Source: Acidobacteriota bacterium (lineage in GTDB: Bacteria > Acidobacteriota > Vicinamibacteria > Vicinamibacterales > UBA2999). From it: 64,000 nt of DNA. Under the pieces are notes generated by a model. That model did no database searches and was not told the origin of the DNA. It worked only from the letters and a program-made list of their open reading frames with translations. This document shows, piece by piece, positions 14,087 through 54,563 of the stretch (within the stretch, counting starts at the first letter, position 1; every line of letters starts with the position of its first letter). Location: assembly GCA_021730945.1 (NCBI GenBank), contig JAKFYH010000013.1:124001-188000 (forward strand). Direction: 5' to 3'. Position numbers and translations under genes: made by a program.

Positions 14087-15355
14087 ATGCGCTGCACCAT
14101 CGTCGCCATCGGGATGCGGGGTGATGTGCAGCCCATGCTGGCCCTCGGCGCCGGATTGAAGGCGGCCGGCGTGCAGGTGCGCGTCGCGACACACGCCGAC
14201 TTCGCTGCGGCGGTGCGCGACGCGGGCCTTGACGTCGCGGTGGTTCAGGGCGATGCCGGCGCGTTCTTCGGCGGCACGGGTGGGGTCGCCCTGCGCGATC
14301 GGCTCGCGGATGCGCGCGCCTTCCGCCGGTTGTTCGACGACTACCTGTCGCTGTTCTACGAAAAGCTGCTCAAGGATGTGGCCGCCGCCTGCGAGGACGC
14401 CGACGTCATCATTTGCTGGCCGTGGACGCGCTTTGCGCCGTCGCTGGCCGAGGCGTTCGGCGTGCCGGTGTTCCTGGCCTGTCCGTATCCGCCGATGCAC
14501 CTGCCAACGGCGGCGTTCGCCAACCCATATCAGCACGAGGCGCACGCCCATTCGCTGCGGCGAAGCTGGAGGCTGGCGTTGCCGGCGGTGCAAATGGGCG
14601 ATGGCCCGCTCAATCGCTGGCGGCAACAAACGCTGAAGCTGGCACCGATTGGGTGGCGGCAGGATGTGCGCCGGTTGAGGCGTATGCCGCACCTGCTGGG
14701 CTACAGCGAAGCCGTGCTGCCGCGGCCGGCCGAATGGCCGGCGTCGGTGGAGATCACGGGTTTCTGGTTCCTGCAATCCGCCGGCTACGAGCCGCCACCG
14801 GAGCTGAAGGCGTTTCTCGAGGCGGGTCCGGCCGTGGCGATCGGTTTTTCCAGCCAGGTGGTCCGCAACAACCACGCCCTCGCCAAGGCGGTCGCCGGCG
14901 GCATCGCCGCGTCGGGCGTGCGCGCGGTTGTGCTGTCGGGGTTTGGGGCGCTCGCCAACCTGACCGCCGGACCAACGATGCTGCCCATGCGATCGGTGCC
15001 CTACGAGTGGCTGTTTGCGCGGATGACGGCGGCGGTCCATCACGGCGGATCGGGTTCGACCGGCCTCGCGCTCCAGGCCGGTGTGCCGAACGCGGCCGTC
15101 CCGTTTGGCTACGACCAACCGCTGTGGGGTGAGCGACTGCACGACCTCGGTGTCGGCCCTGCACCGATTCGCGCCACCGACCTCACCGCCGACGGCCTGG
15201 CGCGGATGCTGACGGCATTGACCACCAGCGAGCCAATGCGGCAACGGGCGCGCGAGCTGTCGGCGGCGATTCGCGCCGAAGACGGAGTTGGGCGGGCGGT
15301 CGCGGCAATTTCGTCGGCGCTCGCTCGGCGGGACTCGCCCGCCGGCGCCTTATGA
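14087..15355 (+). CDS. GT1/MGT-type glycosyltransferase (second of a tandem pair)
   Basis: 422 residues, collinear with its upstream neighbour: VAIGMRGDVQP at the start, matching LPHLLGYS and GFSSQV segments, and the donor signature HHGGSGSTGLALQAG with AVPFGYDQ. ATG 14087 sits two nucleotides after the upstream stop. The pair looks like a tandem duplication that has since diverged, which would fit two successive sugar additions or two acceptor positions. Its 3' end overlaps the convergent large synthase by six nucleotides. Confidence 0.88.
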   Translation: MRCTIVAIGMRGDVQPMLALGAGLKAAGVQVRVATHADFAAAVRDAGLDVAVVQGDAGAFFGGTGGVALRDRLADARAFRRLFDDYLSLFYEKLLKDVAAACEDADVIICWPWTRFAPSLAEAFGVPVFLACPYPPMHLPTAAFANPYQHEAHAHSLRRSWRLALPAVQMGDGPLNRWRQQTLKLAPIGWRQDVRRLRRMPHLLGYSEAVLPRPAEWPASVEITGFWFLQSAGYEPPPELKAFLEAGPAVAIGFSSQVVRNNHALAKAVAGGIAASGVRAVVLSGFGALANLTAGPTMLPMRSVPYEWLFARMTAAVHHGGSGSTGLALQAGVPNAAVPFGYDQPLWGERLHDLGVGPAPIRATDLTADGLARMLTALTTSEPMRQRARELSAAIRAEDGVGRAVAAISSALARRDSPAGAL

Positions 15356-18300: not shown

Positions 18301-21300
18301 CGGGGCCAAACGCAGCCGCGGGCCACATCCGCCTGGCCAGATCGACCGCTGGTGGCATGCGCTGCGACGCCTGGTCGACGCTCTCGCGCAACTCGGGGAA
18401 GTAGAGCGCCAGCGACCGCCCCATCCCCGGGTGCTGGCTCCCCTGTCCGGGAAAGACGAACGCCAGGTCGCCACGCGGCGGGCCGGCCGCGAGAAACACG
18501 CCTTTCGACGGCGCGAGCTGGCCGGGCTCGCTCTCTTTCAGCCGGCGAATGCCGGCGCGCAGTTCATCAAGTGAAGTGGCGACCATCGCGGCGCGCCACG
18601 GCGCGTCAGCCTTGGCCTCGACCAGCGACACGTAGGCCAGATCGCGGAAAGCAAACGCGGCCGGGCGGCCGTCGTTCGGTGCCGCCGCCAGGTAGGCCGC
18701 CGCCCGATCGAGCCGATCCAGTTGGCGATGCAGGCCGCCGCGATCGTCGGCGCCGATCACGAACAGCTCGCACGGCCACAGCGTCGCGCCAGGCGCCGCG
18801 CCGGCACCCGTCGGCCGATGTTCTTCGACCACCGCGTGATAGTTGGTGCCGCCAAACCCGAACGCGCTGGCGCCGGCGCGGCGTGGCGCCGTACCGGCCA
18901 GCCAGGGCGTGGCCTCAGCCAGCAAGTACATCGGCTGATCGCCGCCGGCCACCGCGGGCAGTGGCGAGGTCACTCCGGCATGCGGCGGCAACACCCGATG
19001 GTGCAGCGACAGCACCGCCTTCATCAGTGCCACCATGCCGGCAGCGATGCGAGTGTGGCCGACCAGGCTCTTGACCGATCCCACCGCGCACGACTCGCCG
19101 CCCGACCCGGCGGTGCGCAGCAGCCGGCTTAACGTCTCGGTCTCGGCGGCATCGCCGAGCGCCGTGCCGGTGCCATGCGCCTCGTACAGTCCGAGCGACG
19201 CCGGATCGACGCCGGCGCGGGCGTAGGCCCGATCGAGCGCTACGCTCTGCCCGGTCGACTTGGGCGCGGTCATGCTCAGGCCGCGGCCGTCGCTCGACGC
19301 CGCCACGCTCTTGATCACGCCGTAGACGCGATCGCCGTCACGCTCGGCATCGGCCAGCCGCTTGAGCACCATCGCCACGCCGCCCTCGGCAATGACGATG
19401 CCGTCGGCGCCGCGGTCGAAGACATCGGCGCGCCCCCGCGGCGACAAGGCGCGGGTGTGGCTGAAGCCCATGAAGGTCTGCGTCGACATTTCGAAATCGA
19501 ATCCGCCGGCCAGGGCCATGTCGGAGCGGCCATCGGCTACTTCGCGCACGGCCACATCGAGTGCGGCCAGCGACGAGGCGCAGGCGGCATCGGTGGTGAG
19601 GTTGGGGCCGCCAAGATCGAACCGGTTGGCCACCCGGCCGGCGACGACGTTGGCAAGCAGCCCGGGATAACTCTCCTCGGTCCACTCGGGCAGCCGGCGC
19701 CGCATCGCTTCGTCAATCGGCCCGACGATCAAGGGCAGCGCGGCGCGCGCCATGTACATCTGCTCGAGGTCACCGGTGTTGCCGACCGCGAACACGACGG
19801 CGGTGCGCTCACGCAGGGCGGCGGGCGGCCGCGCGTCGGCGTAGCCGGCATCGATCAGGGCGCGGCGTGAAATTTCGAGCGCCAGCAGTTGGGGCGGCGT
19901 AATCGCGCGCAGCGAGTTGGGCGGAATGCCGAACCCGGTGGGGTCGAAGCCGATCGCATCGACGAACCCGCCCCACTTGGAGGCGACGCGGTCGCGCGCG
20001 CCGGCACGGGCATCGTAGAGCAGCCGGTAGTCCCAGCGCTCGCGGGGAATCTCGGTGATGGCGTTGCGGCGATCGAGGACGTTACGCCAGAACGTGCCGG
20101 GATCGCGGGCGCCGGGGACCAGGCAGGCCATGCCGACAATGGCGACGTCGGCAGGCTGTGGCGGCTCCATCACTCGAGCGACCGGCGCCGATAGAAACGC
20201 CTGCAATCGCGCGGTGGAGCCGTCCGACACCTCGGTGTGCAAGGCGGCGATCGTGGTGATGCGATCGCGGCATGCCGCCACCTGGCCCAGCATGAACAAG
20301 CCGTCGGCATGCTGGCGCGCGGCGTCGACCTCCACCAGCCGATCGCCCTGCCGGGCCAGGCCCTTTGACGCAATCCGCGAGCGGCCCAGCACCAGTTGGT
20401 CGAGCGCACTGGACAGCTCGTCGCTGCCCAGTCCCGACTGGGCGAGCGCCTGGCGCTCGCGCGCGAAGTGATCGATGAAGGGCGTGGCGGCGCAGCGAAT
20501 GACATGCCCGGGCCCGGTCTCAATGGTGGCGGTGGTCTCGCTGGTCAACGCCTCATGCTGGAAGCCGGGCGTAATGGCGCCGCACGCCACCGCTTCTTCG
20601 GTAAACAGGTAGGCGGTCCCCATCAACGCGCCGACCTGCACGCCGGCCGCGGCCAGTGGCGCCGCGAGTGCCGACACCATGGCGGCCGATCGATCGTCGT
20701 GAATGCCGCCGGCGAACAGCACCTGGGTGGCCGCGGCATCGGCCGCCGGCAGCCGCTCGATCAGCGTGTCGACCGCGTAGTCCCACAGCGCGAAGCTATG
20801 AAGCGGCCCGACGTGACCGCCGCATTCGCCGCCCTCGAAGACGAAACGGCGCGCGCCCTGCGCCAGGAACACCGGCAGCAGCGGCGCCGGGACATGGAGG
20901 AACGTGCCGATACCGGCGGCTTCAAGGTCGGCGGCCTGATCGGGACGGCCACCGGCAATCAGCGCGAACGGGGGACGCGCGTGCCGCACGGCCGCGAGTT
21001 GTTCCTGGCGCAGAGGGTTGGGCACGAAGCCAAGGATGCCGACACCCCAGGGCCGGCCTTCGAGGCGCGCCGCCGTCGCGGTCAGCAGGCTCGCCACGTC
21101 GGGACCGCGCAAGAGCGCCAGGGCCAGCATCGGCAACCCGCCGCCGCCGGCGACCGCCGCGGCAAAAGCCTCGGTGTCGCTCACCCGCGTCATCGGTCCC
21201 TGCACGATCGGCACGCGCGTGCCGAGCGCCTGCGCGAGCGGAGCATGCGTGGCCAGCGGCAACAGCCGCGCCGCGGCCGACAGGTGCTCCGGGATGGCCG

Positions 21301-22246
21301 CCTGCACCGCGCGCACCAACCGCGCGACCGTGCGGTAGCGATCGGCTGCGGCGCTCGCGCGTGCGCTGGCTTCGCCGATCGGCCAGGCCGTGTCGGCCGG
21401 ATCACCCCACGCCACCATCTGGCCGACCGCGCGCATCCACTCGGCCGAGGCCATCGCATCGCCGGTCGCCGACAACGCTTCGGCGGTGGCCTTCAAGGTC
21501 CGCGACGCGTCTGATTCGTGGCGATCGATGACGCGCACGGCATGGCCGAGGTCGCTGCCCACCCGCACCGTGTCGGTGTGCGACACCTTCGCCAACAGGT
21601 GCCGCCAGCGTGGCGGCAGGGGCGACTCCCGCAGCAACAGCACCACATCGTCCAGGATCACGCCGTGGGCGCCGGCCGCCGCGCACGCCGCGGCGCTGTG
21701 CAGACCGATGCCGCCGCGAACCAGGAACGGGCGATCGAGCGCGGCGAGGCGTTGGGCCAGCACGAAAGACGACTCGCGCCCGGCGTGACCGCCGCACTCG
21801 GCGCCGCGCGCGGCCCAGCCGGCGAATGCCAGTGAGGCCGCGACCGCGTGCGTCTCGGCGCTGTCGCCAACCTCAAGCCAGATTTCGCGGCCCGGCGAGG
21901 CCAGCGACGTCAACATGGCCGGCAGCGACGCGGCCGTCCATTGATCGAGCAGCACCCAGTGCGGCCGGACCGCCAGGGCGGCCAGCCACTGCGGATGATC
22001 GGCGGCTTGCGCGGCGGTCAGCCGCAGGCCGACGGCGGCGCGATCGATCGGCGGGGTGGCGGCAGCGGCGTGGAGATTGCGCAGCACCGTCTCGGTGCAG
22101 GCGGCGGGCGCGTGGACCGCATCGAGAATGCCGATGCCACCGGCGCGCGCGGTTTCGATCGCGACGGCTGCATGGGCAAGGCCGGCCGGCGACAAGGTGG
22201 CGCACAACGACGAGCTGATCCGCTTCGGTTGGGTGATCGATAACAC
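15350..22246 (-). CDS. Large synthase: NMO-type FMN domains, KS, AT, ACP, KR
   Basis: About 2298 residues. Residues 1-690 hold two nitronate-monooxygenase/PfaD-like barrel segments; the second has VPIVQGPMTRVSD and the FMN-binding FEGGECGGHVGP near 465. A ketosynthase follows from about 697 with active-site Cys889 (DAACASSLA), His in EAHGTGTALG and SVKSLVGHT. The acyltransferase has FVFPGQGSQ near 1265 and GHSFGE with Ser1360. The carrier motif DLGIDSIK places Ser1759, and a ketoreductase from about 2045 has VATGGARGV and catalytic-type Tyr2204 in DYAAANE. The DSIK carrier and NMO domain recall PUFA synthases (PfaA/PfaD), here fused. GTG 22246 is chosen, with GGAG 11 nt upstream; a longer frame to 22990 is antisense to the next gene. 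Confidence 0.85.
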   Translation of the reverse strand: MLSITQPKRISSSLCATLSPAGLAHAAVAIETARAGGIGILDAVHAPAACTETVLRNLHAAAATPPIDRAAVGLRLTAAQAADHPQWLAALAVRPHWVLLDQWTAASLPAMLTSLASPGREIWLEVGDSAETHAVAASLAFAGWAARGAECGGHAGRESSFVLAQRLAALDRPFLVRGGIGLHSAAACAAAGAHGVILDDVVLLLRESPLPPRWRHLLAKVSHTDTVRVGSDLGHAVRVIDRHESDASRTLKATAEALSATGDAMASAEWMRAVGQMVAWGDPADTAWPIGEASARASAAADRYRTVARLVRAVQAAIPEHLSAAARLLPLATHAPLAQALGTRVPIVQGPMTRVSDTEAFAAAVAGGGGLPMLALALLRGPDVASLLTATAARLEGRPWGVGILGFVPNPLRQEQLAAVRHARPPFALIAGGRPDQAADLEAAGIGTFLHVPAPLLPVFLAQGARRFVFEGGECGGHVGPLHSFALWDYAVDTLIERLPAADAAATQVLFAGGIHDDRSAAMVSALAAPLAAAGVQVGALMGTAYLFTEEAVACGAITPGFQHEALTSETTATIETGPGHVIRCAATPFIDHFARERQALAQSGLGSDELSSALDQLVLGRSRIASKGLARQGDRLVEVDAARQHADGLFMLGQVAACRDRITTIAALHTEVSDGSTARLQAFLSAPVARVMEPPQPADVAIVGMACLVPGARDPGTFWRNVLDRRNAITEIPRERWDYRLLYDARAGARDRVASKWGGFVDAIGFDPTGFGIPPNSLRAITPPQLLALEISRRALIDAGYADARPPAALRERTAVVFAVGNTGDLEQMYMARAALPLIVGPIDEAMRRRLPEWTEESYPGLLANVVAGRVANRFDLGGPNLTTDAACASSLAALDVAVREVADGRSDMALAGGFDFEMSTQTFMGFSHTRALSPRGRADVFDRGADGIVIAEGGVAMVLKRLADAERDGDRVYGVIKSVAASSDGRGLSMTAPKSTGQSVALDRAYARAGVDPASLGLYEAHGTGTALGDAAETETLSRLLRTAGSGGESCAVGSVKSLVGHTRIAAGMVALMKAVLSLHHRVLPPHAGVTSPLPAVAGGDQPMYLLAEATPWLAGTAPRRAGASAFGFGGTNYHAVVEEHRPTGAGAAPGATLWPCELFVIGADDRGGLHRQLDRLDRAAAYLAAAPNDGRPAAFAFRDLAYVSLVEAKADAPWRAAMVATSLDELRAGIRRLKESEPGQLAPSKGVFLAAGPPRGDLAFVFPGQGSQHPGMGRSLALYFPELRESVDQASQRMPPAVDLARRMWPAAAFGPDQESDQQRKLSETAVAQPAIGALSCGCLDVALRLGLRPSALAGHSFGELVALHAAGSLDRPALVDLAIARGQAMAAADAGAMAMLPLDAAGATTYLDAAAGVVLANINGPSQVVISGPAAAVEQAAERARADGHHAVLLPVSGAFHSPLMRAARASLAEAVARVSWSAPAVPVYGNADGAPYPAAGDAIAARLCDHLEQPVNFVAQIESMYAAGVRVFLELGPGRVMTGLVRRILGGRPAVALACGEDLRAFLDVAAALFIEGQATNLPALHRDRDPRWMDLDRLPEPQPAPPWWIDGGHAWPAGSRQRSSGVDPFLTVETALTAMPIAAVPDVPLPPPGSGTPLVEFYREYEQTMRRFLDQQERMLGHVLGMTEGAVPVVPVAPQVPLVASIAPAPIAPAGDRPGDRGTLLGRLVRIVGDRTGYTEDAIGTDLDLEADLGIDSIKRIEVITTFAQSLPEADGRRLQTELDRLTRLRTLGAIADASALALGGSLAAPAAAPQAGACDRFVIQVAPGDGARSAPRSLHGLHLLIEDRLGVSVLVAQALREAGAIVVSIPAGLSADADRLAAHLADATARAGRVRGLIDLAALGRAAVEGADDWWPEVAATTGNLFRVLKPAAADLDAGGGVVVSVTALGGRWGRDPHRPGAELAAGCHGLLRSFAREYPDVRALVVDVDESESPDAIARQVIGEFLSPDDQEAGWRGGRRFVPVTQAAPIAVSGADAGWRPQAGWVVVATGGARGVTAEVCHELAAPGVRFVLIGRPRGDGAAAGDAAEAERDRAVSRLRAAGAEVELLAVDVGDPAAFGQAIDDVYRRYGRIDGVLHGAGVINDQRFELKPESALVPIFRAKVGGAWTLARHLKPEGLRWVVLFGSVSGRFGNPGQTDYAAANEVLNRLAWRMSAAWPDTRVRAINWGPWRGLGMMSESTLALVQARGIHPITPEAGRRFVLDELSAGANGVVEVIAGHGPWASRTLAVTPRS

Positions 22247-22339
22247 GGGTAGCCGGACTCCGCCTCTGTCAACCTTGAAAACCGGGAGCCTCAGTGTAAC
22301 CCGGTTGACCTGAGCGAGGCGGTCGCGAACAATACGTGG

Positions 22340-23191
22340 ATGATTTACCCGTTCAATCGCGGAGCGCGGCTCCTGGTCGGCCTGATCGCGCTCGGTGTGA
22401 TGCTCGCGCGGCCCGCAGCAGCGCAGAGTCCTGGCAGCAGCGAAACCAGCACCGACCAGACCCTGGCCCAGGACCTGGCGTCGGCGCCGGCACCCGGGAA
22501 GAGCTCTGTGTCTATCACGGTGGGCGGACAGATCCAGCAGGGCCGTACCGAAACCAAGGGCATGAAGGTGGACGGCATCTTTGCGCACTCGACCCAGCGC
22601 AAGGATCTGATCCGCCTCGATGCCGAGATTGATTACGCGCGCTACCGGCCGGCGGCCGGTGAAGATGAACTGGTGGTCGAGAACAGTCAGCAGGCCACGC
22701 TGTTCTACCTGCGGCCGCAGCACAAGCGGCTGTACTTGTTCGGCTCCACCGCCTGGCGGCGCGACATGATCGTCGGCCTCAACTACCGGGCCTACGCCGA
22801 GGCGGGCGCCGGCACGGTGGTCGTCGCACGGGCCAACGTGGACTCGTTCATCGGCCTCTCCTACGCCCTCGGCCGCGAGCACCGGCCGCACACCAATCAG
22901 GGCGCGGCGGTCTCGGACATCGGCATTCTCCAGAACTTCCATTGGCGCATCAGCGACATCATGGGCATTGAGGAGTGGTTCAAAGGGCACCTGCAGGTGA
23001 CCGACAGCGACGACCAGACCTACACCTTTAACGTGTCACTCATGAGCAAATTGACCAAGTACGCGGGCTTGAAGATCTACTACAAGCGCCAGTACGACGC
23101 CCTGACCCCGCCCACGGTGTCGAACCTGCAAAACGAGATCGGCATGGGTGTGCAGATCAATTTCAAGCCGGCCGCAACGGCCAAACCCTAG
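22340..23191 (+). CDS. DUF481-like outer-membrane protein
   Basis: 283 residues with a signal peptide ending near PAAAQ. The mature part is a run of amphipathic strands (VSITVGGQIQQG, LIRLDAEIDYARY, FYLRPQHKRLYLFG, GLNYRAYAEAGAG, ending MGVQINFKP) of the kind seen in DUF481 salt-induced barrels. It is transcribed away from the large synthase. TTGACC (22305-22310), a 17-nt spacer and AACAAT (22328-22333) are followed by the ATG six nucleotides later, with no Shine-Dalgarno, so the mRNA may be leaderless. Function unknown beyond an outer-membrane location, which is inferred. Confidence 0.7.
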   Translation: MIYPFNRGARLLVGLIALGVMLARPAAAQSPGSSETSTDQTLAQDLASAPAPGKSSVSITVGGQIQQGRTETKGMKVDGIFAHSTQRKDLIRLDAEIDYARYRPAAGEDELVVENSQQATLFYLRPQHKRLYLFGSTAWRRDMIVGLNYRAYAEAGAGTVVVARANVDSFIGLSYALGREHRPHTNQGAAVSDIGILQNFHWRISDIMGIEEWFKGHLQVTDSDDQTYTFNVSLMSKLTKYAGLKIYYKRQYDALTPPTVSNLQNEIGMGVQINFKPAATAKP

Positions 23192-42248: not shown

Positions 42249-42887
42249 ATGCTTCACTGGTTCCGCACGCTCCACCTCCGCCTCGTCCGCACCTTGCCGC
42301 TCCGCCTCGTCTCCTCGGCCCAACTGCCGACCGACTACGGTGAGTTCGAGATTCACGTGTTCGAGCGGGCGATCGGCCACGAGGCGCACGTGGCGCTGGT
42401 GCGGGGTGAGCTGGGCGGCGGCGAGAACGTGATGACGCGCGTGCACTCGTCCTGCGTCACCGGCGACATCCTGCATTCGGCGCGCTGCGACTGCGGGCAG
42501 CAGCTCGAATCGGCCATGCGCCAGATCGCAGACGAGGGCCGCGGCGTGTTGCTCTATCTCGACCAGGAAGGGCGCGGCATCGGGCTGGCCAACAAGATTC
42601 GCGCCTATGCGCTGCAGGATCAAGGCTGCGATACGGTCGAGGCCAACGAGCGGCTCGGCTTCCCCGCCGATGCCCGCGACTACCGCGTGGCGTTGCAGAT
42701 GCTGCGCGCGCTCGGTGTGCGCTCCATGCGCCTGCTCAGCAACAACCCGAACAAGCTGGCCGGCGTCACCGGCGAGGGCGTGTCGGTCAGCGAGCGGCTG
42801 CCGATCGAGATTCTCGCCACGGCGACGACCGCGCGGTACCTGAAGACGAAAAAGGACAAGCTCGGGCACGTCCTGACGTCGGTCTGA
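42249..42887 (+). CDS. ribA: GTP cyclohydrolase II
   Basis: 212 residues. Zinc ligands are Cys69, Cys80 and Cys82 (SSCVTGD, RCDCGQQ) and the GTP-binding EGRGIGLANK motif is intact. The N-terminal 20 residues are an Arg/Leu-rich extension ahead of the usual RLVSSAQLPT start. The enzyme opens GTP to a 2,5-diaminopyrimidinone. No riboflavin genes other than a reductase follow; instead it leads, one nucleotide apart, into an unrelated membrane enzyme, so it appears to feed a specialised pathway. It is 18 nt after moeA. Confidence 0.9.
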   Translation: MLHWFRTLHLRLVRTLPLRLVSSAQLPTDYGEFEIHVFERAIGHEAHVALVRGELGGGENVMTRVHSSCVTGDILHSARCDCGQQLESAMRQIADEGRGVLLYLDQEGRGIGLANKIRAYALQDQGCDTVEANERLGFPADARDYRVALQMLRALGVRSMRLLSNNPNKLAGVTGEGVSVSERLPIEILATATTARYLKTKKDKLGHVLTSV

Positions 42888-42888
42888 C

Positions 42889-44559
42889 GTGGCCAGCCGC
42901 TCCGCCGTTCGCCTGCCTCCCTGGTGGCTCGCATGGCCGCTGGCCATTGGCGCCGTGGTCTTGCTCAACCAGTCGCTCACCTTCGCCAATATCTGGCCGA
43001 CCCCGAAGATCGAATGGCAGTACGCCCTCTCGGTTGAGTGCGCCGCGGCCGTCCTGATCCTGGCCATGGTCAGTGGGCGCCTGCGCGGCCTGGCCCGGCG
43101 GATCCTCCCGGCAGTGTGGCTGCTGCTGGTGGCCGGGCACTACATGGACGTCACCGCGCCCGGGCTCTACGGGCGCCCCTTCAATCTCTATTGGGACTCC
43201 GCGCACCTCGGCAACGTGGCGGCCATGCTGGCGCAATCGGCGCCCCTGTGGCTGGTGGTAGCGGCGGTCGTTGGCGCGTTACTCGCGCTGGGCGCGGCAG
43301 CGGTGGCCAGCCACGTGACCATCGGCTGGCTGGCGGCCGGCATGGAGCACCCGCGGCTGCGGGCGACGCTCAGCGCCTCGGCGATCGCGGTGATCGTGCT
43401 GTTTACCGGCCAGCAGCTCACCGGCCCCGCGATCGGCCCGTTGGCATTCGCGGACCCCGTCACGCCCAGCTATGCGCGCCAGGCGCGGTCGGTCCTCGCC
43501 ATGATGGGCCCTGGCGCCGTGGCGCCGGCCCTTCCTGCCAGTCCTGCCGCGTTGGCATCGCCACTCGACGGTCTGGACGGCGCCGACGTGCTGCTGGTGT
43601 TCGTGGAGTCGTACGGCGCCATCACGTTCGAAACGCCGGCGTTTCTGCCGGTGATGGCGGAGGCTCGCGCCGAGGTCGTGGCGGCGGCTCAGGACACCGG
43701 CAAGCAAGTGGTCTCGGCGTTTGTCGACTCGCCCACCTTCGGCGCCTCGTCCTGGCTGGCGCACCTGACGCTGCTGACCGGTGTCGACGTGCGCGACCCC
43801 TATTCGTATCAACGGCTGATGACCGAGTCGCGCGACACGTTGGTCAAGGCCTTCGCGCGGCGCGGCTATCGCACTGTTGCCGTGATGCCGGGCATGCGCC
43901 AACCGTGGCCCGAAGGCGCGTTTTACGGTTTCGACACCATCTACGGACGCGACCTGCTCGAATATCGGGGACCCGAGTTTGGATGGTGGAGCATTCCCGA
44001 CCAGTTCGCGCTGGCCAGGCTCGACGCGCTCGAAACCCGGAAGCCGGCGCGCGCGCCGCTCTTCGTGGTGTTCCCCACCAGCACCACCCACGCGCCGTTC
44101 GGACCGGTGGCGCCGTATCTGTCGGACTGGTCGAGGGTACTCAGGCCTGACGCCTACGATCCCGGCGAAGTCTCGCGCATCCTGAGCCGGCCGCTCGAAT
44201 GGACCAACCTGTCGGCCGACTACGGCCATGCCATGGCCTACGAGTTCACGACGTTTGCCGGTTACTTGCGCCAGCGCGCCAACGACGACCTGGTGATGAT
44301 CCTGATCGGCGACCACCAACCACCCGCCGCCGTGTCAGGCAAGGACGCGTCGTGGTCGGTGCCCGTGCACGTGATCACCAATCGATCTCACGTCATCGAG
44401 CAGTTGCAGGCGCGCGGTTTCACGACCGGTCTCACGCCGCGGCGTCCGGCCCTTGGCGGGATGCACGAGTTGGTGCCCATGCTGACCGGCGCCTTCGAAG
44501 CCTCACCGGGGCCGGTGAAGCCAGAGGTGCCGAACGTCGAGGGCGAACGACCACGCTAA
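42889..44559 (+). CDS. Alkaline-phosphatase-superfamily membrane enzyme (LtaS-like)
   Basis: 556 residues. Several N-terminal membrane segments (about 14-185) are followed by a sulfatase/alkaline-phosphatase-type domain. Motifs are VFVESYG near 235, with Glu-Ser-Tyr as the metal/nucleophile neighbourhood, FGASSWLAHLTLL (Ser as the possible nucleophile), and LIGDHQPPAA as the distal metal site. Such enzymes move phospho-alcohol groups on the cell surface. GTG 42889 starts one nucleotide after ribA. The 3' end overlaps the convergent CDP-alcohol phosphatidyltransferase gene by 57 nt. Surface decoration of a lipid or glycan is inferred. Confidence 0.75.
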   Translation: MASRSAVRLPPWWLAWPLAIGAVVLLNQSLTFANIWPTPKIEWQYALSVECAAAVLILAMVSGRLRGLARRILPAVWLLLVAGHYMDVTAPGLYGRPFNLYWDSAHLGNVAAMLAQSAPLWLVVAAVVGALLALGAAAVASHVTIGWLAAGMEHPRLRATLSASAIAVIVLFTGQQLTGPAIGPLAFADPVTPSYARQARSVLAMMGPGAVAPALPASPAALASPLDGLDGADVLLVFVESYGAITFETPAFLPVMAEARAEVVAAAQDTGKQVVSAFVDSPTFGASSWLAHLTLLTGVDVRDPYSYQRLMTESRDTLVKAFARRGYRTVAVMPGMRQPWPEGAFYGFDTIYGRDLLEYRGPEFGWWSIPDQFALARLDALETRKPARAPLFVVFPTSTTHAPFGPVAPYLSDWSRVLRPDAYDPGEVSRILSRPLEWTNLSADYGHAMAYEFTTFAGYLRQRANDDLVMILIGDHQPPAAVSGKDASWSVPVHVITNRSHVIEQLQARGFTTGLTPRRPALGGMHELVPMLTGAFEASPGPVKPEVPNVEGERPR

Positions 44560-45219
44560 CGCCGCGAGCGTCACGCCCGCGACGATCGCGCTGGGCGGCG
44601 GCATCACGATCGGCGCCAGCGCCAGGCCGAGACCCGCCAACTGCGCGATCGCCACGGCCTTGCCACGAAAGGTCGACCGCAGCGGCCGGCCCAGCCACGA
44701 CAGCCGCCAACCGGCGGCCACGAAGGCGTAACGCATCAGGCCGCAACCAAGCACCCATGGACCGGCTTTGCCGAACTGCCACACCAGCACGCTCAGTACG
44801 AGGATGTGGAGCGCGTCGGTTTCCATGTCGAAGCGGGCGCCGAAAGGGCTGGCCATCCCACTGCGACGTGCCAGCCAGCCATCCACGCCGTCGAGGGCGG
44901 CCATCGCCGCCGTGACGCCCACCACCACCCACGCGACCATCGCCGGCACCTCCAGCCACGGCGCCAGCGCCAGGCTGGCCAGCAGCGCCACGAACATCGC
45001 CCGCACCATCGTCACCAGGTTGGCCGCGCCAAGCCTGGGGAAGGGATGGCCGGATCCCATCGTGGTGATGGCCACGCTCATCATCCCGATGAAGATGGCG
45101 GCGGCCACGAACGGTTGGGTGGAGCTGACGCCCATTGCCGGAGCCGCCATCAGGCCGATCGCCATCACGCCCAGCGCGCCAACCGCGGCCACACCAACAA
45201 GATTCGCGCGAGGCGGCAT
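44503..45219 (-). CDS. CDP-alcohol phosphatidyltransferase family protein
   Basis: 238 residues with several hydrophobic helices. The family signature is intact: DGVDGWLARRSGMASPFGARFDMETDA, that is D-G-x2-D-x-(A)R-x8-(G)x3-D-x3-D in form. Enzymes of this family join a CDP-activated alcohol to a second alcohol within the membrane. It is divergent from the dehydrogenase operon and overlaps the membrane phosphatase-like gene by 57 nt at the 3' end. ATG 45219 is used; GTG 45225 is possible. A lipid-linkage step for the cluster product is inferred. Confidence 0.85.
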   Translation of the reverse strand: MPPRANLVGVAAVGALGVMAIGLMAAPAMGVSSTQPFVAAAIFIGMMSVAITTMGSGHPFPRLGAANLVTMVRAMFVALLASLALAPWLEVPAMVAWVVVGVTAAMAALDGVDGWLARRSGMASPFGARFDMETDALHILVLSVLVWQFGKAGPWVLGCGLMRYAFVAAGWRLSWLGRPLRSTFRGKAVAIAQLAGLGLALAPIVMPPPSAIVAGVTLAALAWSFALDVRHLWLHRPR

Positions 45220-45256
45220 TGTCACGACCGGGTTACCGGGACACAATGAACGGCAC

Positions 45257-46228
<972 letters not shown>

Positions 46229-46260
46229 TCGGCTCACGAAGATGTTTGAAGGAGACTGCA

Positions 46261-46671
46261 ATGTATAGCGTGACCGTGCGCGATCACATGATGATCGCGC
46301 ACAGCTTCAAGGGCGACGTGTTTGGGCCGGCGCAACGCCTGCACGGCGCCACCTACGTGGTCGACGCGGAATTCCGCCGCCCCGCTCTCGACGCCGACGG
46401 CATCGTCATCGACATCGGCCGCGCCGGCGACGTCCTCAAGCGCGTGCTGGGAGCGCTGAACTTCCAGAATCTGGACGAGGTGCCGGCCTTCGCGGGACAG
46501 AACACCACGACGGAGTTTCTGGCCAGGACGATCTTCGATCGCATGGTGGCCGCCATCCACGCCGGGGAACTCGGTCCCGGTGCCACCGGCGTCGAGCACA
46601 TCAAGATCACCCTGCACGAATCGCACGTCGCCTCTGCAGGGTTCGACGGCCGCGTCACCGGCACGCCCTGA
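46261..46671 (+). CDS. 6-pyruvoyl-tetrahydropterin synthase homologue with altered active site
   Basis: 136 residues, the size of the PTPS family. The family shape is clear: [31 protein letters not shown] and a C-terminal [15 protein letters not shown]. Zinc ligands expected from the family are His14 and His28, but the third (usually HGH) is Ala30 here. The catalytic Cys normally found about six residues ahead of the HGH motif is replaced by Gly22. GAAGGAG at 46247-46253 fixes the start. The context of GTP cyclohydrolase II and a RibD-like reductase suggests a pterin-like substrate, though the missing residues indicate a different reaction or a non-canonical metal site. Confidence 0.82.
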
Positions 46672-46672
46672 C

Positions 46673-47728
46673 GTGCGATCGATCGCTTTCCTCGTGGCCG
46701 GGCCGCTCGAGACACGCTCTGGCGGATCCATCTACAACCGCCGCATCGCCGAAGGCCTGCGCCGGCTCGGATGGCAGGTGGAGGTCCGGGAACTGGAAGC
46801 GAGCTTTCCTTGCCCGACGGCCGCCGCGCAGCACACGGCCGCCAACGTGCTGGGCGGACTTGCCGATGGCACAACCGTGGTGGTTGACGGCCTGGCCTAC
46901 GGCGCCATGCCAGAACTCGCGGAGCGCCACGGCGCGCGCTTGCGTTTTGTCCCGATCGTGCACCTGCCGCTCGGCGCCGACGTCAATGTGGATGCCGCGA
47001 CCGCGGCCCGCCTCAACGCCGGTGAGCAGCGCGCCCTGGCGCACGCCGCCGTGGCGGTCGTCACCGGAGCCGCGGCCATTGGGCTGATGACCGCCCTTGG
47101 CCTGACCGCGCCACGCCTCTTCTTGGTGGAACCGGGAACCAACGCGGCGCCACTCGCCGCTGGATCGGGTTCGGCCATCGTGCACCTGCTGACGGTCGCA
47201 TCGGTGCATGCGGGCAAGGGTCACGAGACGCTGATCGCGGCGCTGGCCGGCGTTCCGGCACGCGATTGGCATCTCACCTGCGCCGGCAGCTTGACCCGGG
47301 ACCCGGCGACGGTGGCGCGCGTCCGCGCGGCGATCGCGCACCACGGGCTCGGCGATCACATTGATCTGGTCGGCGAGCTCGACGCGCACGCCACGGGTGA
47401 CGCTTATCACGCCGCTGACGTGTTCGTGCTGGCGACCCGGCAGGAGACCTATGGCATGGCGGTGGCCGAAGCGCTGGCACGCGGTCTCCCGGTGATCGGC
47501 ACGGCCACCGGCGCCATCCCGTCGCTCTTGCACGACGGTGCCGGGCTGGTCGTCGCACCGGACAACCCGGACGCTCTGGCCGTAGCGCTGACCAGGGTCA
47601 TCACCGACGCCGGCCTGCGCGCGGCTCTCGCCGCCGGCGCGCGGCAGGCGCGGAGCCGACTGCGAGACTGGAGCCACGCCTCGGCCGCATTCGCGGCGGT
47701 ATTGGAGACGATCGACGTTCATGGATGA
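46673..47728 (+). CDS. GT4-family glycosyltransferase
   Basis: 351 residues. GT-B features are FLVAGPLETRSGGSIYN at the start and the C-terminal GT1 signature VLATRQETYGMAVAEALARGLP, with Glu in TRQETYGM. GTG 46673 overlaps the PTPS stop (GACGTG) and the downstream methyltransferase starts eight nucleotides inside its end. In this operon it probably adds a sugar to the GTP-derived intermediate or its lipid carrier; donor unknown. Confidence 0.85.
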   Translation: MRSIAFLVAGPLETRSGGSIYNRRIAEGLRRLGWQVEVRELEASFPCPTAAAQHTAANVLGGLADGTTVVVDGLAYGAMPELAERHGARLRFVPIVHLPLGADVNVDAATAARLNAGEQRALAHAAVAVVTGAAAIGLMTALGLTAPRLFLVEPGTNAAPLAAGSGSAIVHLLTVASVHAGKGHETLIAALAGVPARDWHLTCAGSLTRDPATVARVRAAIAHHGLGDHIDLVGELDAHATGDAYHAADVFVLATRQETYGMAVAEALARGLPVIGTATGAIPSLLHDGAGLVVAPDNPDALAVALTRVITDAGLRAALAAGARQARSRLRDWSHASAAFAAVLETIDVHG

Positions 47729-48605
47729 ATCGCTTTCGGAATGGCTGCGGCTGCGCGAACGCGCCGACGAGCGCGCCAGGGCGGCGGCATTGGTCCAGGC
47801 CGTCGCGGCGGTCCTGCCCTCAGATCGGCCGGTGCGCATGCTCGACCTCGCCACCGGCGCCGGTTCCAACCTCCGCTACCTGATCGAACGCCTGCCGCCA
47901 CGGCAGCAGTGGACGGTGGTGGACCGCAGTCCCCTCCTGCTTGATGCGCTGATCGAACGGACCGCGGCCTGGGCCGCCTCGCGCGGGCACACGGTGGCCA
48001 TCGCCGGCCGCGGACTCGCCATCAGCGGGCACCAGCTGGATTGCCGCATTGAAACGCAGCCGGTCGACCTGGCAGCGCTCGACGATCCATCCCTGTTCGC
48101 CGGCCGCGACCTGGTCACCGCGTCGGCCCTGCTCGACCTGGTGTCGGCCACCTGGCTGCGGGCCCTGTCGGCGCACTGCGCGTCCGCCGGCAGTGCGGCA
48201 CTCTTCACGCTGACTTACGATGGCCGGTCGAGCTGCACGCCGCGTGAAGCCGAAGATGAGCAGGTGCGCGAGCTGATGAACGCGCACCAGTTACGAGACA
48301 AGGGCTTGGGGGGACCCGCCGAGGGGCCGCGCGCGACGGCCTGTGCCGAGCGCTGCCTCACCGAAGCCGGCTTCCGCGTCACGCTGGCGCAAAGCGACTG
48401 GGTGCTCGATGTCGACGAAGCCGCAATGCAACGCGAGTTGATTCGTGGGTGGTGGCAGGCTGCGGTCGAAATGGCTCCGGCACTGGAAGGCGGGCTGACC
48501 GGCTGGTTATCGCGGCGGCTCACACATATCGACGCGGGACACTCGCGCCTGACCGTGGGCCACTACGACCTGGCGGCGCTGCCTGGCATCGGCCGCGGTC
48601 GCTAG
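47721..48605 (+). CDS. Class I SAM-dependent methyltransferase
   Basis: 294 residues. Motif I is MLDLATGAGSNLRYL near residue 40 and the acidic motif II is WTVVDRS. The C-terminal part has no extra recognisable domain. It overlaps the GT4 gene by eight nucleotides, and its stop codon overlaps that of the convergent RibD-type gene within the palindrome CTAG. An O- or N-methylation step in the cluster pathway is inferred. Confidence 0.82.
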   Translation: MDESLSEWLRLRERADERARAAALVQAVAAVLPSDRPVRMLDLATGAGSNLRYLIERLPPRQQWTVVDRSPLLLDALIERTAAWAASRGHTVAIAGRGLAISGHQLDCRIETQPVDLAALDDPSLFAGRDLVTASALLDLVSATWLRALSAHCASAGSAALFTLTYDGRSSCTPREAEDEQVRELMNAHQLRDKGLGGPAEGPRATACAERCLTEAGFRVTLAQSDWVLDVDEAAMQRELIRGWWQAAVEMAPALEGGLTGWLSRRLTHIDAGHSRLTVGHYDLAALPGIGRGR

Positions 48606-49570
48606 ATGATGCGCGTGACCGCGGCCCCCTCGGCGGCGCGGCCGGGGTCGTCCGTGCGCAGGTCGCAGTCAAACAGCACGTCGCCACCCATGCGGTAGAC
48701 GCGGTTGGCCGGCCGGCGGCAGTCGCGCAGCCGTTCGGGCGCCGGCAGTCGGATGGCCGGCCGGCCGTTGCCGATCAGAACCGGCGCCAGGGTGATCTGC
48801 AGGCGGTCCAGCAAGCCGGCCTCCAGGAACGCCGACACCGTGACACCGCCGCCTTCCACGAAGATGCGCGCGCACCCGCGGGTACGCAAGGCGGCCACCA
48901 GTTCACCGGCGGCGGCACCGGCGGCCTCCGATTCGAGTCCCACGATCGTGGCCGTGCCGACGAGGTCTTCGCCGGCGGCGATGCGGGCCCGGCCGCACAG
49001 GTACAGCGTCGGTGCCGCCAGGTCGACAAACACCCGCGCCGACGGTTCCAGCCGGCGCTCTGGATCGAGAATCACCCGCAGGGGATTCGGGCCACTCACC
49101 CGCCGCGTGGTCAATTGCGGGTCGTCCGCGGCCACCGTTCCGGCACCCACCACCACGGCGTCGCACAGCGCACGCAGGCGGTGCATGTGCACGAGGTTGT
49201 CGTCGCCGGTGACAAACTGCGAGTCGCCGGAATGAGTGGCGATGAAGCCGTCGAGGCTTTGGCCCAGGTGGCCCACGGTGATCGGCCGCGCCGGTGTGGC
49301 GCTGCAGATTGGCAGGTAGAGATCCACCAGGCCGGCGCGCGGATCGTCCGCGGGCAACAGCGATTCCCAGCCGGAGCCCGGATGCCAGGCCAGCGCGGCT
49401 CCAGGGTGTCCGCCGGCCACCGGATGCAGCCGCCCGGTCTCGTCAGGCGCAAAGACCTGGGCGCGGCCGGCGCGATCGAGCTCGGCCGCAGCATCGGCCG
49501 CCGACTGCACCAGCGGCCACGCCGCCTCGGCCGCGATGCCGTGTTGCGGCGCGGTCAGCTCAACCGCCAC
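48602..49570 (-). CDS. RibD C-terminal-type reductase
   Basis: 322 residues. Residues about 95-310 match the RibD reductase/DHFR-like domain: ITVGHLGQSLDGFIATHSGDSQFV, DAVVVGAGTVAADDPQL and FVEGGGVTVSAFLEAGLLD. The usual N-terminal deaminase domain of RibD is missing and replaced by about 90 residues of unknown, non-catalytic sequence. The family reduces the ribosyl side chain of the diaminopyrimidine made by RibA, using NADPH. It converges with the methyltransferase, ending within CTAG. GTG 49570 is the chosen start. Confidence 0.85.
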   Translation of the reverse strand: MAVELTAPQHGIAAEAAWPLVQSAADAAAELDRAGRAQVFAPDETGRLHPVAGGHPGAALAWHPGSGWESLLPADDPRAGLVDLYLPICSATPARPITVGHLGQSLDGFIATHSGDSQFVTGDDNLVHMHRLRALCDAVVVGAGTVAADDPQLTTRRVSGPNPLRVILDPERRLEPSARVFVDLAAPTLYLCGRARIAAGEDLVGTATIVGLESEAAGAAAGELVAALRTRGCARIFVEGGGVTVSAFLEAGLLDRLQITLAPVLIGNGRPAIRLPAPERLRDCRRPANRVYRMGGDVLFDCDLRTDDPGRAAEGAAVTRII

Positions 49571-52229: not shown

Positions 52230-52313
52230 GAACCCTCGTGATGGAACCGTCGTGTTTGAACCGCCGTGTTTGAACCGTCGTGATCGAACCGTCGTGATCG
52301 AACCTACGTGATC
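52230..52313. repeat. Six tandem 14-bp repeats between nadA and sod
   Basis: Units of the form GAACCGTCGTGATC start at 52230, 52244, 52258, 52272, 52286 and 52300, with one to four differences between units. They fill the gap between the two minus-strand genes; the last unit contains the nadA stop codon and the first carries the sod Shine-Dalgarno. Copy-number change would alter the sod leader and the nadA tail. Confidence 0.85.
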
Positions 52314-53446
52314 GCCAACATCCGATCTAACGCGATCTTAGCCCACTTCTTCTGTCCGTCCGGTACCACGATTTCGTTCACCACGTCGCCGTCCACCAGC
52401 GAATCGAGCACCCACAGCAGGTGGTTGGGCGACACGCGGAACATGGTCGAGCACAGGCAACCGAACTGGTCGAGCGAGATCACGGTCTTGCCGGGCGCTA
52501 CCTCTTCCGCCAGCCGGTGCACCAGGTGGACCTCGGTGGCGACCGCCCAGGTCGAGCCATCGGGGCTGTCGCGCACCGTCTTGAGGATGTACTCGGTCGA
52601 GCCGCTGTCGTCGGCGGCGAGCAACACGTCGAACGGCACTTCGGGATGCACGATCACCTTGATGCCCGGGTGCTCACGGCGGACCTGCTCGATTTGCGCG
52701 GCGGTGAAGCGCACGTGCACGGAGCAGTGTCCCTTCCACAGGATGAGTTTCGCCCGCTCCAACTCGTCGCGGGTGAGGCCGCCGAACGGTTGATACGGAT
52801 CCCACACCACCATCTGGTCGAGCGGCAGGCCCATCTGGTACGCTGTGTTGCGTCCCAGGTGCTGGTCCGGCAGGAACAGGATCCTCTCGCGCTGTTGCCA
52901 GCCCCACCTGAGCGTGGCGGCAGCGTTGGACGAGGTGCAGACGGTGCCGCCGTTCTCGCCCACCAGCGACTTAATCGCCGCCGCCGAGTTGATGTAGGTC
53001 ACCGGCACCACGGACGACGCCAGGCCCAATTGCCGCAGTTCGTTCCAGCAGGTCTCCAGTTGATCCGCCGGCGCCATGTCGGCCATTGAACAGCCGGCCG
53101 CCAGGTCGGGCAGGATCACCCGCTGGTGCGGCAGCGCCAGGATGTCGGCGCTCTCGGCCATGAAGTGGACGCCGCAGAACACGATGTAATCGGCGGCAGG
53201 ATGGCGGGCGATGGCGTTGGCCAGCTTGAAAGAATCCCCGGTGTAATCGGCGAACCGGATCACCTCGTCGCGCTGATAGTGGTGACCGAGGATGACCAGG
53301 CGATCGCCGAGTGCGGCGCGAGCGGCGGCAATGCGCAGCGCCATCTCCTCGTCTGGCAGCCCGAGGTAGGCATCCGGCAGCGGCTGGCGCTCGTGAATGG
53401 AGGCCTTCTCGACCTCGTTGAGGACGGGCAGAAATGTGTTGGGCAT
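52304..53446 (-). CDS. nadA: Quinolinate synthase
   Basis: 380 residues. The [4Fe-4S] ligands are Cys91 (FCGVHFMAES), Cys170 (TVCTSSNA) and the later FGCLCSTM cysteine. The GHHYQRDEV and PEVP motifs are conserved. It condenses iminoaspartate and dihydroxyacetone phosphate into quinolinate for NAD. ATG 53446 was chosen because similarity starts at NTFLPVLNEVEKASIH; the upstream frame is antisense-like Arg-rich sequence. It sits 10 nt after mqnE. Confidence 0.93.
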   Translation of the reverse strand: MPNTFLPVLNEVEKASIHERQPLPDAYLGLPDEEMALRIAAARAALGDRLVILGHHYQRDEVIRFADYTGDSFKLANAIARHPAADYIVFCGVHFMAESADILALPHQRVILPDLAAGCSMADMAPADQLETCWNELRQLGLASSVVPVTYINSAAAIKSLVGENGGTVCTSSNAAATLRWGWQQRERILFLPDQHLGRNTAYQMGLPLDQMVVWDPYQPFGGLTRDELERAKLILWKGHCSVHVRFTAAQIEQVRREHPGIKVIVHPEVPFDVLLAADDSGSTEYILKTVRDSPDGSTWAVATEVHLVHRLAEEVAPGKTVISLDQFGCLCSTMFRVSPNHLLWVLDSLVDGDVVNEIVVPDGQKKWAKIALDRMLAIT

Positions 53447-53456
53447 TTCCCGACAG

Positions 53457-54563
53457 CTATTGCAGGGCTGGAATGCGAACGACGTTGTACAGAGTATCGC
53501 GCTCGATGGGTTCGCGGCCAGCGTCGCGGATGAGCTGCTCGATGTCGTCGGTCGACAGTGTCGTCGGCGTCGACGAGCCGGCCATGTGATAGATCGTCTC
53601 TTCCTGGACGGTGCCGTCGAGGTCGTCGGCGCCGAACCACAACGCGGTTTGCGCCACTTCCACGCCGCACGAAATCCAGTAGGCCTTGATGTGATCGACG
53701 TTGTCGAGCACCAGCCGCGCCACCGCATGCACCTTCAGCGTCTCGCTGGCCGCCGGCGCCGGCAGCTTGCGCATCTGGTTGTTGTCGGGATGAAAGGCCA
53801 GCGGGATGAAGGCCTGCAGGCCGCCGGTATCGTCCTGCAACGCCCGCGTCTGCAGCAGGTGATCGACGCGCTCCTCGGTGGTCTCGATGTGGCCGTAGAG
53901 CATGGTGACGTTGGTGCGCATGCCCAGATCATGGGCAATGCGGTGAATCGCCAGGTAGCGAGCGCCGTCGCACTTGTCGTGGCAAATCTTCTGGCGCACG
54001 CGCGGCGCGAAGATTTCGGCGCCGCCGCCGGGCAGCGAGTCGAGGCCGGCCGCCTTCAGCTCGGCCAGCACCTGGCGGTCGGTCTTGCCGTAGTGATCCG
54101 CGAAGAAGGCAATCTCCACCGCGGTGAAGCACTTCAAGTGAATGCCGGGGCGAATCTGCTTCAGGCCGGACAGCAGCTCCGTGTAATAGCTGAACGGCAG
54201 GCCGGGGTGCAGGCCATTGACGATGTGCACTTCGGTGAGGGGCTGATCGCCGCGCTGCCGCAACTTGGCGAAGATTTGCTCCAGCGACATGGTGTGCGAC
54301 CCGGGATCGCCCTCCTTCAGCCGCGCAAACGAGCAGAACAGGCACGACGCTTCGCAGACGTTGGTCGCCTCGAGCCGCAGGTTGTGGTTGAAGTAGGTGC
54401 GATCGCCATGGCGCCGCTCGCGTTCGCGATTGGCGATCCAGCCAAGCGCCAGCAGGTCGGTGGACTCGAAGAGCGCCACCGCATCGTCGAACGACAGCCG
54501 TTCGCGCGCCTCGACCTTGTCGGCGATGTCAACGAGTCCCGCAGTTTTCAGACGCTGTCGCAT
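53457..54563 (-). CDS. mqnE: Aminofutalosine synthase (radical SAM, menaquinone)
   Basis: 368 residues from ATG 54563. The radical SAM motif is Cys70, Cys74, Cys77 (NVCEASCLFC), followed by the family blocks EVHIVNGLHPGLPFSYY and LPGGGAEIFAPRVRQKICHDKCD. It makes aminofutalosine in the futalosine menaquinone route. TTG 54581 and GTG 54578 are longer alternatives. MqnC is the other close family, but the NGLHPGLPF block favours MqnE. TACAAT upstream on the minus strand (54607-54602 region) is a candidate promoter, back to back with that of the riboswitch. Confidence 0.85.
   Translation of the reverse strand: MRQRLKTAGLVDIADKVEARERLSFDDAVALFESTDLLALGWIANRERERRHGDRTYFNHNLRLEATNVCEASCLFCSFARLKEGDPGSHTMSLEQIFAKLRQRGDQPLTEVHIVNGLHPGLPFSYYTELLSGLKQIRPGIHLKCFTAVEIAFFADHYGKTDRQVLAELKAAGLDSLPGGGAEIFAPRVRQKICHDKCDGARYLAIHRIAHDLGMRTNVTMLYGHIETTEERVDHLLQTRALQDDTGGLQAFIPLAFHPDNNQMRKLPAPAASETLKVHAVARLVLDNVDHIKAYWISCGVEVAQTALWFGADDLDGTVQEETIYHMAGSSTPTTLSTDDIEQLIRDAGREPIERDTLYNVVRIPALQ

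Follow-up and report, generated by a model that had tools for sequence, protein, structure and literature searches.

We analysed a 64,000-nt stretch of the genome of an Acidobacteriota bacterium (Vicinamibacterales, UBA2999; assembly GCA_021730945.1), hereafter the window, which corresponds to positions 124001-188000 of contig JAKFYH010000013.1 in a genome of 4.73 Mb. At window positions 42249-49570 lies a block of eight genes that an initial annotation, made from the sequence alone, had read as a candidate undescribed pathway for a GTP-derived, glycosylated and possibly lipid-linked metabolite. The eight genes, their positions, overlaps and gaps were all borne out, with families assigned by Pfam and NCBIfam:

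42249..42887, plus strand: ribA, GTP cyclohydrolase II (GCHII) without DHBP synthase domain, 212 aa (Pfam PF00925 GTP_cyclohydro2, 1.7e-69)
42889..44559, plus strand: membrane AP-superfamily enzyme, N-terminal helices plus catalytic domain, 556 aa (Pfam Sulfatase, 8.2e-07)
44503..45219, minus strand: CDP-alcohol phosphatidyltransferase (CDP-AP), 238 aa (PF01066 CDP-OH_P_transf, 4.2e-15)
45257..46228, plus strand: MDR dehydrogenase, distantly BchC-like, 323 aa (NCBIfam TIGR01202, 2.8e-13, under cut-off)
46261..46671, plus strand: PTPS-IV type T-fold protein, 136 aa (PF01242 PTPS, 4.6e-22)
46673..47728, plus strand: GT4 glycosyltransferase, GTG start, 351 aa (PF00534 Glycos_transf_1, 4.7e-26)
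47721..48605, plus strand: class I SAM methyltransferase, family-specific, 294 aa (sub-threshold Pfam match and model fold)
48602..49570, minus strand: RibD_C reductase, 322 aa (PF01872 RibD_C, 2.1e-36)

The genes are tightly packed: gaps of 1 nt separate ribA from the AP gene and PTPS from GT4, the AP and CDP-AP genes overlap by 57 nt at their tails, 37 nt lie between CDP-AP and MDR and 32 nt between MDR and PTPS, and overlaps of 8 nt and 4 nt join GT4 to the methyltransferase gene and the latter to RibD_C. Both strands carry genes of the block (ribA-AP plus, CDP-AP minus, MDR-PTPS-GT4-methyltransferase plus, RibD_C minus), so that it is not one operon, which refines the initial picture. Pfam matches of the MDR (ADH_zinc_N) and of the methyltransferase fall under the cut-offs. 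The initial annotation had also remarked on missing riboflavin synthase and lumazine synthase genes, and neither RibE nor RibH was found among the 20 window proteins scanned, the remainder of the window being unscanned for them.

Within the window's own order, the two genes at the centre of the block travel together. The PTPS query matched 71 of 162 genomes at E <= 1e-10 and the MDR query 68 at E <= 1e-60; every one of the 68 genomes with the MDR also carries the PTPS, 91 have neither gene, and in the three with PTPS only (G089, G101, G149) that gene lies about 150 bases or less from a contig end. Twenty neighbourhoods, picked for long contigs from the 71 genomes, contained MDR in 20, CDP-AP in 18, GT4 in 18, the methyltransferase in 17, RibD_C in 16, AP in 15 and ribA in 14. 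The spread is patchy: the genus is represented by nine genomes, with the host of the window among them, and four of these are missing both MDR and PTPS. When 396 genomes were sampled across the phylum, PTPS-IV matched in 18, 15 of them in the window's order and three, weakly, elsewhere. One genome of the order, G137 (locus L214), carries a variant cluster with a flippase-type protein, a creatininase-family protein and a ribA of proteobacterial type, suggesting replacement by transfer.

The initial annotation had left co-occurrence across phyla to be searched for, and it was found. We examined 95 loci, comprising 14 plasmid loci (opened out of 23 plasmid records with a PTPS match by protein search), the best 80 of 559 PTPS relatives from a scan with one genome per species, and the window, using profiles grown from the window genes. 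PTPS is present in all 95 by construction; GT4 was detected in 92, MDR in 90, the methyltransferase in 88, RibD_C in 65, CDP-AP in 60, ribA in 45 and AP in 32. All four core genes (MDR, PTPS, GT4 and methyltransferase) are present in 84 of the 95, and the carriers span Pseudomonadota, Actinomycetota, one Gemmatimonadetes bin and haloarchaeal plasmids besides the window. The strict order MDR-PTPS-GT4-methyltransferase on one strand within 6 kb was seen in 66 loci, and six more (L067, L091, L094, L113, L117, L127) have GT4 and methyltransferase fused in a single open frame; in L108 and L122 it is AP and CDP-AP that share one open frame. These fusions suggest that the fused partners act together; the locus drawings place each open reading frame under its best family only and show fused genes as one. 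Exceptions to the core comprise five loci without MDR, three without GT4 and seven without the methyltransferase, some of them explained by contig ends, and in several Rhodobacterales loci the GT4 either sits elsewhere or is a different one. All eight genes occur together in 14 loci, the window included. At least one of ribA, RibD_C and creatininase is found in 74 of the 95, and any of CDP-AP, AP and flippase in 66. As an internal control, hits concentrate within about 6 kb around PTPS and thin out towards the ends of the 20-kb stretches. The co-occurrence exceeds chance: in different phyla the same families come back side by side, in most cases with their order kept.

The more or less complete block sits on plasmids of Methylosinus, Rhizobium, Thiodictyon, Microbacterium and Streptomyces fungicidicus, and further plasmid carriers are Neorhizobium, two Rhodobacterales, Arthrobacter (the core without methyltransferase) and three haloarchaea. 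The haloarchaeal loci (L042, L050, L051) keep the MDR-PTPS-GT4-methyltransferase order, two of the three with CDP-AP; in L042 a creatininase is present but ribA is not. Neighbouring families were collected by all-against-all comparison after removal of shadow open reading frames, named by Pfam and then counted with profiles. Recurrent among them were an LPG_synthase_TM flippase-type protein (52 of 95 loci), cytochrome b561 (23), an FkbM methyltransferase (23), an MdoH-like GT2 glycosyltransferase (20), creatininase (19, of which 17 also carry ribA) and an inositol-monophosphatase family (11). The MdoH-like GT2 (for example in L038 and L049), the FkbM methyltransferase and the cytochrome b561 may be optional tailoring or redox parts. 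Five actinobacterial loci without RibD_C, each gone through gene by gene, consist of compact runs of ribA, CDP-AP, MDR, PTPS, GT4, methyltransferase, flippase and creatininase, two of them adding an inositol-monophosphatase-type phosphatase and one (L128) having no detected methyltransferase; such runs fit one route with exchangeable parts.

The window PTPS turned out to belong to the PTPS-IV subfamily of COG0720. Its closest solved structure is 3d7j (SCO6650), aligned over residues 1-129 of 136 at E 1.9e-50, with the best QueD structure far behind at only 0.013. The protein in 3d7j reportedly binds no zinc and has no PTPS activity, with a pterin-type pocket. The window protein carries the signature FGPAQ, in which F21, G22, A24 and Q25 are invariant in a 14-row alignment and P23 is kept in at least 90%, and which is given as the mark of PTPS-IV in a 2017 network study (PMC5445326). 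The residues of PTPS-I and QueD were not found in the alignment to QueD: the QueD motif CxxxHGH (PMC5041015) reads AxxxHGA, and the catalytic Asp-His pair is replaced by Asn-Phe. The aligned solved chain likewise has Ala at the place of the Cys. Compared with QueD, PTPS-IV is without the Cys, the catalytic Asp-His and one of the zinc His residues, and has kept the Glu. This conserved Glu anchors the pterin ring in the PTPS T-fold. The HGA motif occurs in the PTPS of 92 of the 95 loci, an apparent HGH in L095 having been rejected as an artefact of upstream read-through, since the protein itself reads HGA. In the three haloarchaeal proteins, HSH takes this place and FGPAQ is absent, so they represent a divergent form. 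The host's other PTPS, on contig C38, has CKFVHGH. Several plasmid records (L038, L040, L045 and others) annotate PTPS-IV as 6-carboxytetrahydropterin synthase and the MDR as zinc-binding alcohol dehydrogenase, names that clash with the aligned families, the catalytic and zinc residues being missing.

The other proteins of the block were assigned in the same way. The window RibA keeps the three zinc Cys and the Tyr of LLYLDQEGR and is a GTP cyclohydrolase II. A Met in place of this Tyr, reported for the Streptomyces cluster RibA, was not seen, Tyr being present in 45 of 45 aligned copies, with the register of ten actinobacterial rows unsure owing to a one-residue insertion. The RibD_C protein has an N-terminal extension of about 95 aa and no deaminase domain, its best match among solved structures is the 2,5-diamino-6-ribosylamino-pyrimidinone phosphate (DARPP) reductase 6p8c (5e-25), and by sequence it has the stand-alone layout of archaeal and fungal DARPP reductases; the deaminase motif was found in none of the 66 cluster RibD open reading frames. 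The CDP-AP retains DxxDGxxAR...GxxxDxxxD, which we take to be the catalytic motif of CDP-alcohol phosphatidyltransferases. The GHE motif of zinc MDRs is absent from the window MDR and occurs in one of 92 MDR hits, which is an additional MDR in L048 at a distance of some 7 kb from the PTPS. The AP enzyme, with its membrane helices and AP-fold domain, fits the LtaS/EptA type in its predicted structure (AlphaFold pLDDT 81.3): the best match is LtaP (E 3.4e-09), with LtaS, EptA and relatives also matched, and the first 20 Foldseek matches have 9-17% identity and TM-scores, by query length, of 0.31-0.48. An invariant Ser288-Trp289 might, on our reading, correspond to the nucleophilic Thr of LtaS. 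The GT4 matches Tll1590, PimA and D-inositol-3-phosphate glycosyltransferase chains, and the methyltransferase model (pLDDT 96.7) matches generic SAM-methyltransferase-fold proteins among the structures listed.

Riboflavin enzymes are encoded separately in the host. Its second GCHII is part of a ribBA fusion elsewhere in the genome, next to genes for RibE, of the lumazine-binding family, and for a complete RibD with both its functions (RibH was not sought). Across 26 genomes, mostly picked for ribA in the locus, 24 have a cluster ribA (G019 and G038 lack it), and 18 of the 24, including the nine of the window's order, have another intact GCHII. In the remaining six (Xanthomonas, Agrobacterium, Thauera, Azorhizobium, Amorphus and Aureimonas) the only further GCHII match has lost the zinc Cys or escaped recovery with the profile. 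The initial annotation was to fall if the genes did not co-occur in other genomes, or if ribA and the reductase proved to be sole copies needed simply for riboflavin. Neither applies to the window genome, which has ribD-ribE-ribBA elsewhere; in the six other carriers the cluster ribA may be the only intact GCHII. Five proteobacterial non-cluster GCHII-like domains (L184, L187, L188, L189, L191) lack the zinc Cys and look degenerate; in these hosts riboflavin synthesis may depend on the cluster copy of ribA.

We placed 49 GCHII domains (24 from clusters, 25 others) in a tree, omitting 10 short or divergent GCHII-like rows, one stretch (L193) in which the profile gave no match and four partial matches. 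The cluster RibA of the window's family groups with the ribBA of its own order, the proteobacterial cluster copies together with G137 form a separate clade, and the Streptomyces and Micromonospora types stand elsewhere. The label cluster or non-cluster changes six times on the tree and four to seven times over bootstraps, and the starred branches force at least two changes. Given these several positions, GCHII seems to have entered the cluster more than once, as expected if the pathway requires the compound that GCHII makes. We considered whether the residue preceding [QH]EGR marks a RibA that stops at the formyl stage: it is A, S or G where creatininase accompanies ribA (17 loci), and D, N or R where it does not (28 loci, the window among them). 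The idea was dropped, as the loops RGHEGR and KGQEGR also occur in the non-cluster copies L149 and L152 and the A/S form falls within one clade of the tree. G137 combines an A-form RibA with a creatininase.

From these families, residues, co-occurrences, fusions, separate riboflavin genes and the several placements of cluster RibA on the tree we infer a conserved, uncharacterised cluster that turns GTP into a glycosylated and probably membrane-linked metabolite, a reading to which we give a probability of about 0.6. RibA would open GTP towards DARPP, and this entry into diaminopyrimidinone chemistry is well supported. Where present, the creatininase-family protein would plausibly strip the formyl group left on the RibA product; archaeal ArfB is a formyl hydrolase of this family. 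The stand-alone RibD_C would then reduce the ribosyl to a ribityl group with no deamination beforehand. The zinc-less PTPS-IV would hold the 2-amino-4-oxo ring by its conserved Glu and, together with the MDR, might produce the mature pyrimidine or pterin head group, the least certain chemistry of the scheme. The methyltransferase and GT4 would methylate and glycosylate this head group, and CDP-AP would couple the polyol to a phosphatidyl group. A flippase-type protein, where present, could turn the lipid outward, where the LtaS/EptA-like AP enzyme might add a phospho-alcohol group. The link of the product to a lipid is likely, on circumstantial evidence. The product class put forward by the initial annotation is well supported by gene content; its chemistry and lipid link are inferred.

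Several observations weigh against this reading or limit it. The co-occurrence of MDR and PTPS in the order has a p of about 1e-42 in Fisher's test, which takes related genomes as independent although they are not, and the locus counts are not population frequencies because the loci were chosen by PTPS from the best 80 of 559 relatives. Three genes of the block are far from universal, with ribA in 45, RibD_C in 65 and CDP-AP in 60 of the 95 loci. Contig ends cut some loci short, but among the 72 loci of at least 20 kb, ribA is found in 31, RibD_C in 48 and CDP-AP in 47. In 29 of the 95, some cut by contig ends, there is no CDP-AP, AP or flippase. Two Streptomyces plasmid loci have PTPS-IV without any of the seven partners. 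The six genomes named above, of the 24, count against a clean separation from riboflavin outside the window's order, since the other match is degenerate or unrecovered there and the cluster ribA may be the sole GCHII and serve riboflavin too. The GCHII tree rests on 189 columns, with weak deep branches and an unsettled bootstrap.

The partnerless PTPS-IV genes lie at 10001-10408 of L039 and 12001-12384 of L044, with the partners lacking within 10-12 kb. Both stretches also hold genes for a BTAD-type regulator, a sigma factor and MBL-fold and cupin proteins.

The loci without membrane genes speak for an alternative in which a glycoside of a pterin or pyrimidine is secreted in soluble form, and CDP-AP, flippase and AP serve another pathway, for a glycolipid, that happens to be encoded next door. 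Pterin glycosides are known, and the most constant genes are indeed MDR, PTPS, GT4 and the methyltransferase. However, CDP-AP mostly adjoins the MDR (of its 62 hits, 41 have their centre 1-2 kb upstream of PTPS), and it is kept in 18 of the 20 loci read in the order and in two of the three haloarchaeal loci, so that we consider a soluble product somewhat unlikely.

The GT4 matches to PimA and to D-inositol-3-phosphate glycosyltransferases, and the inositol-monophosphatase family in 11 of the 95 loci, would also agree with an inositol-type glycolipid, similar to phosphatidylinositol mannosides, made by CDP-AP and GT4, the pterin-like genes supplying a cofactor for the MDR or reductase. The recurrence of GCHII, creatininase and RibD_C, with the apparently repeated entry of GCHII, is hard to explain by a trace cofactor, and no inositol-phosphate synthase is among the ten Pfam-named neighbour representatives; we regard this explanation as improbable. 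Slightly less probable still is plain riboflavin biosynthesis, in which vitamin B2 is all that ribA and the RibD-type reductase work towards and the remaining genes have nothing to do with them. Both GCHII and RibD_C come from families of riboflavin enzymes, and the six genomes just discussed speak for such a role, but the host has its own ribD-ribE-ribBA, three quarters of the 24 carriers checked have a further intact GCHII, the cluster RibD proteins lack the deaminase motif, and the neighbours that this view takes as unrelated recur in different phyla.

A branch towards coenzyme F420 is very improbable: DARPP reduction products are shared F420 precursors and some carriers make F420, but CofD exceeded the cut-off in only four of 14 carriers, all four Actinomycetota, and in none of the ten others (one of them, G082, matches weakly below it), the window genome has none, and no F420 gene is among the ten neighbour representatives. 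An unpublished remark quoted in a review (PMC5041015) assigns PTPS-IV to archaeal F420 synthesis, a role that does not fit this distribution of CofD.

The reading of the block as a pathway from GTP to a glycosylated, membrane-linked product would assign a function to the orphan PTPS-IV subfamily and would account for extra GTP cyclohydrolase II copies credited to riboflavin. It would further imply a GTP-derived, probably membrane-attached compound common to Pseudomonadota, actinomycetes, the window's order and haloarchaea. More tentatively, and with less confidence than in the pathway itself, this compound could be one cross-domain lipid with a DARPP-derived ribityl-pyrimidine or pterin head that is methylated, glycosylated, flipped and capped by the LtaS/EptA-like enzyme. 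If true, this would be a new lipid class, and PTPS-IV a zinc-free T-fold enzyme with new chemistry. The carriers include cultivated genera (Streptomyces, Methylosinus, Rhizobium, Vreelandella), so that direct testing is possible.

The block is flanked by moeA upstream and by a gene for an alginate-export-type protein downstream, neither of them among the Pfam-named recurrent neighbours. Elsewhere in the window, a 2546-aa open frame on the minus strand (15350-22990, about 72% G+C) may encode a genuine protein of giant size or may stay open by artefact because of the high G+C content, and NadA (474 aa, 52304-53728, minus strand) begins with about 140 aa that find no match ahead of the domain, its start codon possibly being placed too far upstream.

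Part of this arrangement has been seen before. The 2017 network places PF00925 and PF01872 beside PTPS-IV in a cluster of 561 sequences (PMC5445326). That PTPS-IV group, which includes SCO6650 (3d7j), is like the window protein in its FGPAQ, in the lost PTPS/QueD catalytic residues and in the PF00925/PF01872 neighbourhood, whereas the part of the study consulted does not show an archaeal form, the membrane genes or the MDR-GT4-methyltransferase core. FolE2 was set aside as a neighbour of PTPS-IV: the same study labels PF00925 as GTP cyclohydrolase I/FolE2, and the Pfam name is GTP cyclohydrolase II. The word undescribed in the initial annotation thus stands in part: no described pathway or product was found in the open-licence literature, most subscription papers lying outside the search, but PTPS-IV is already recognised as an orphan subfamily, and its association with PF00925 and PF01872 was in that network.

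The locus of the S. fungicidicus plasmid (L045) contains CDP-AP, MDR, PTPS, GT4, methyltransferase, flippase, creatininase and ribA, which is consistent with the numbering SCO6650-SCO6655 in Streptomyces coelicolor, a region said to have been studied by the Bandarian laboratory. L045 differs from the window in having a creatininase and no RibD_C; the eight genes of the window block include RibD_C and the AP enzyme, but a creatininase is not among them. A flux model of S. coelicolor lists the GCHII gene SCO6655, which we assign to the cluster because its locus number is close to that of SCO6650, among genes whose expression runs opposite to the predicted flux (r -0.61); according to its authors, most genes in that list fall into two expression clusters switched on at phosphate depletion (PMC2853524).

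The AP enzyme is similar to the LtaS and EptA phosphotransferases in fold and low in identity (9-17%). Toxoflavin-type pathways offer a parallel in being a secondary-metabolite branch that starts from the GCHII product, after riboflavin's first step; they are not known to contain PTPS, CDP-AP or GT4. There is also a likeness to the archaeal riboflavin and F420 route of ArfA, ArfB and ArfC, in which the reductase acts before deamination and a creatininase-family protein serves as formyl hydrolase. That route begins with ArfA and this one with GCHII, and beyond it the present cluster adds GT4, methyltransferase, MDR, PTPS-IV and CDP-AP; we regard it as a new branch of DARPP-derived metabolism.

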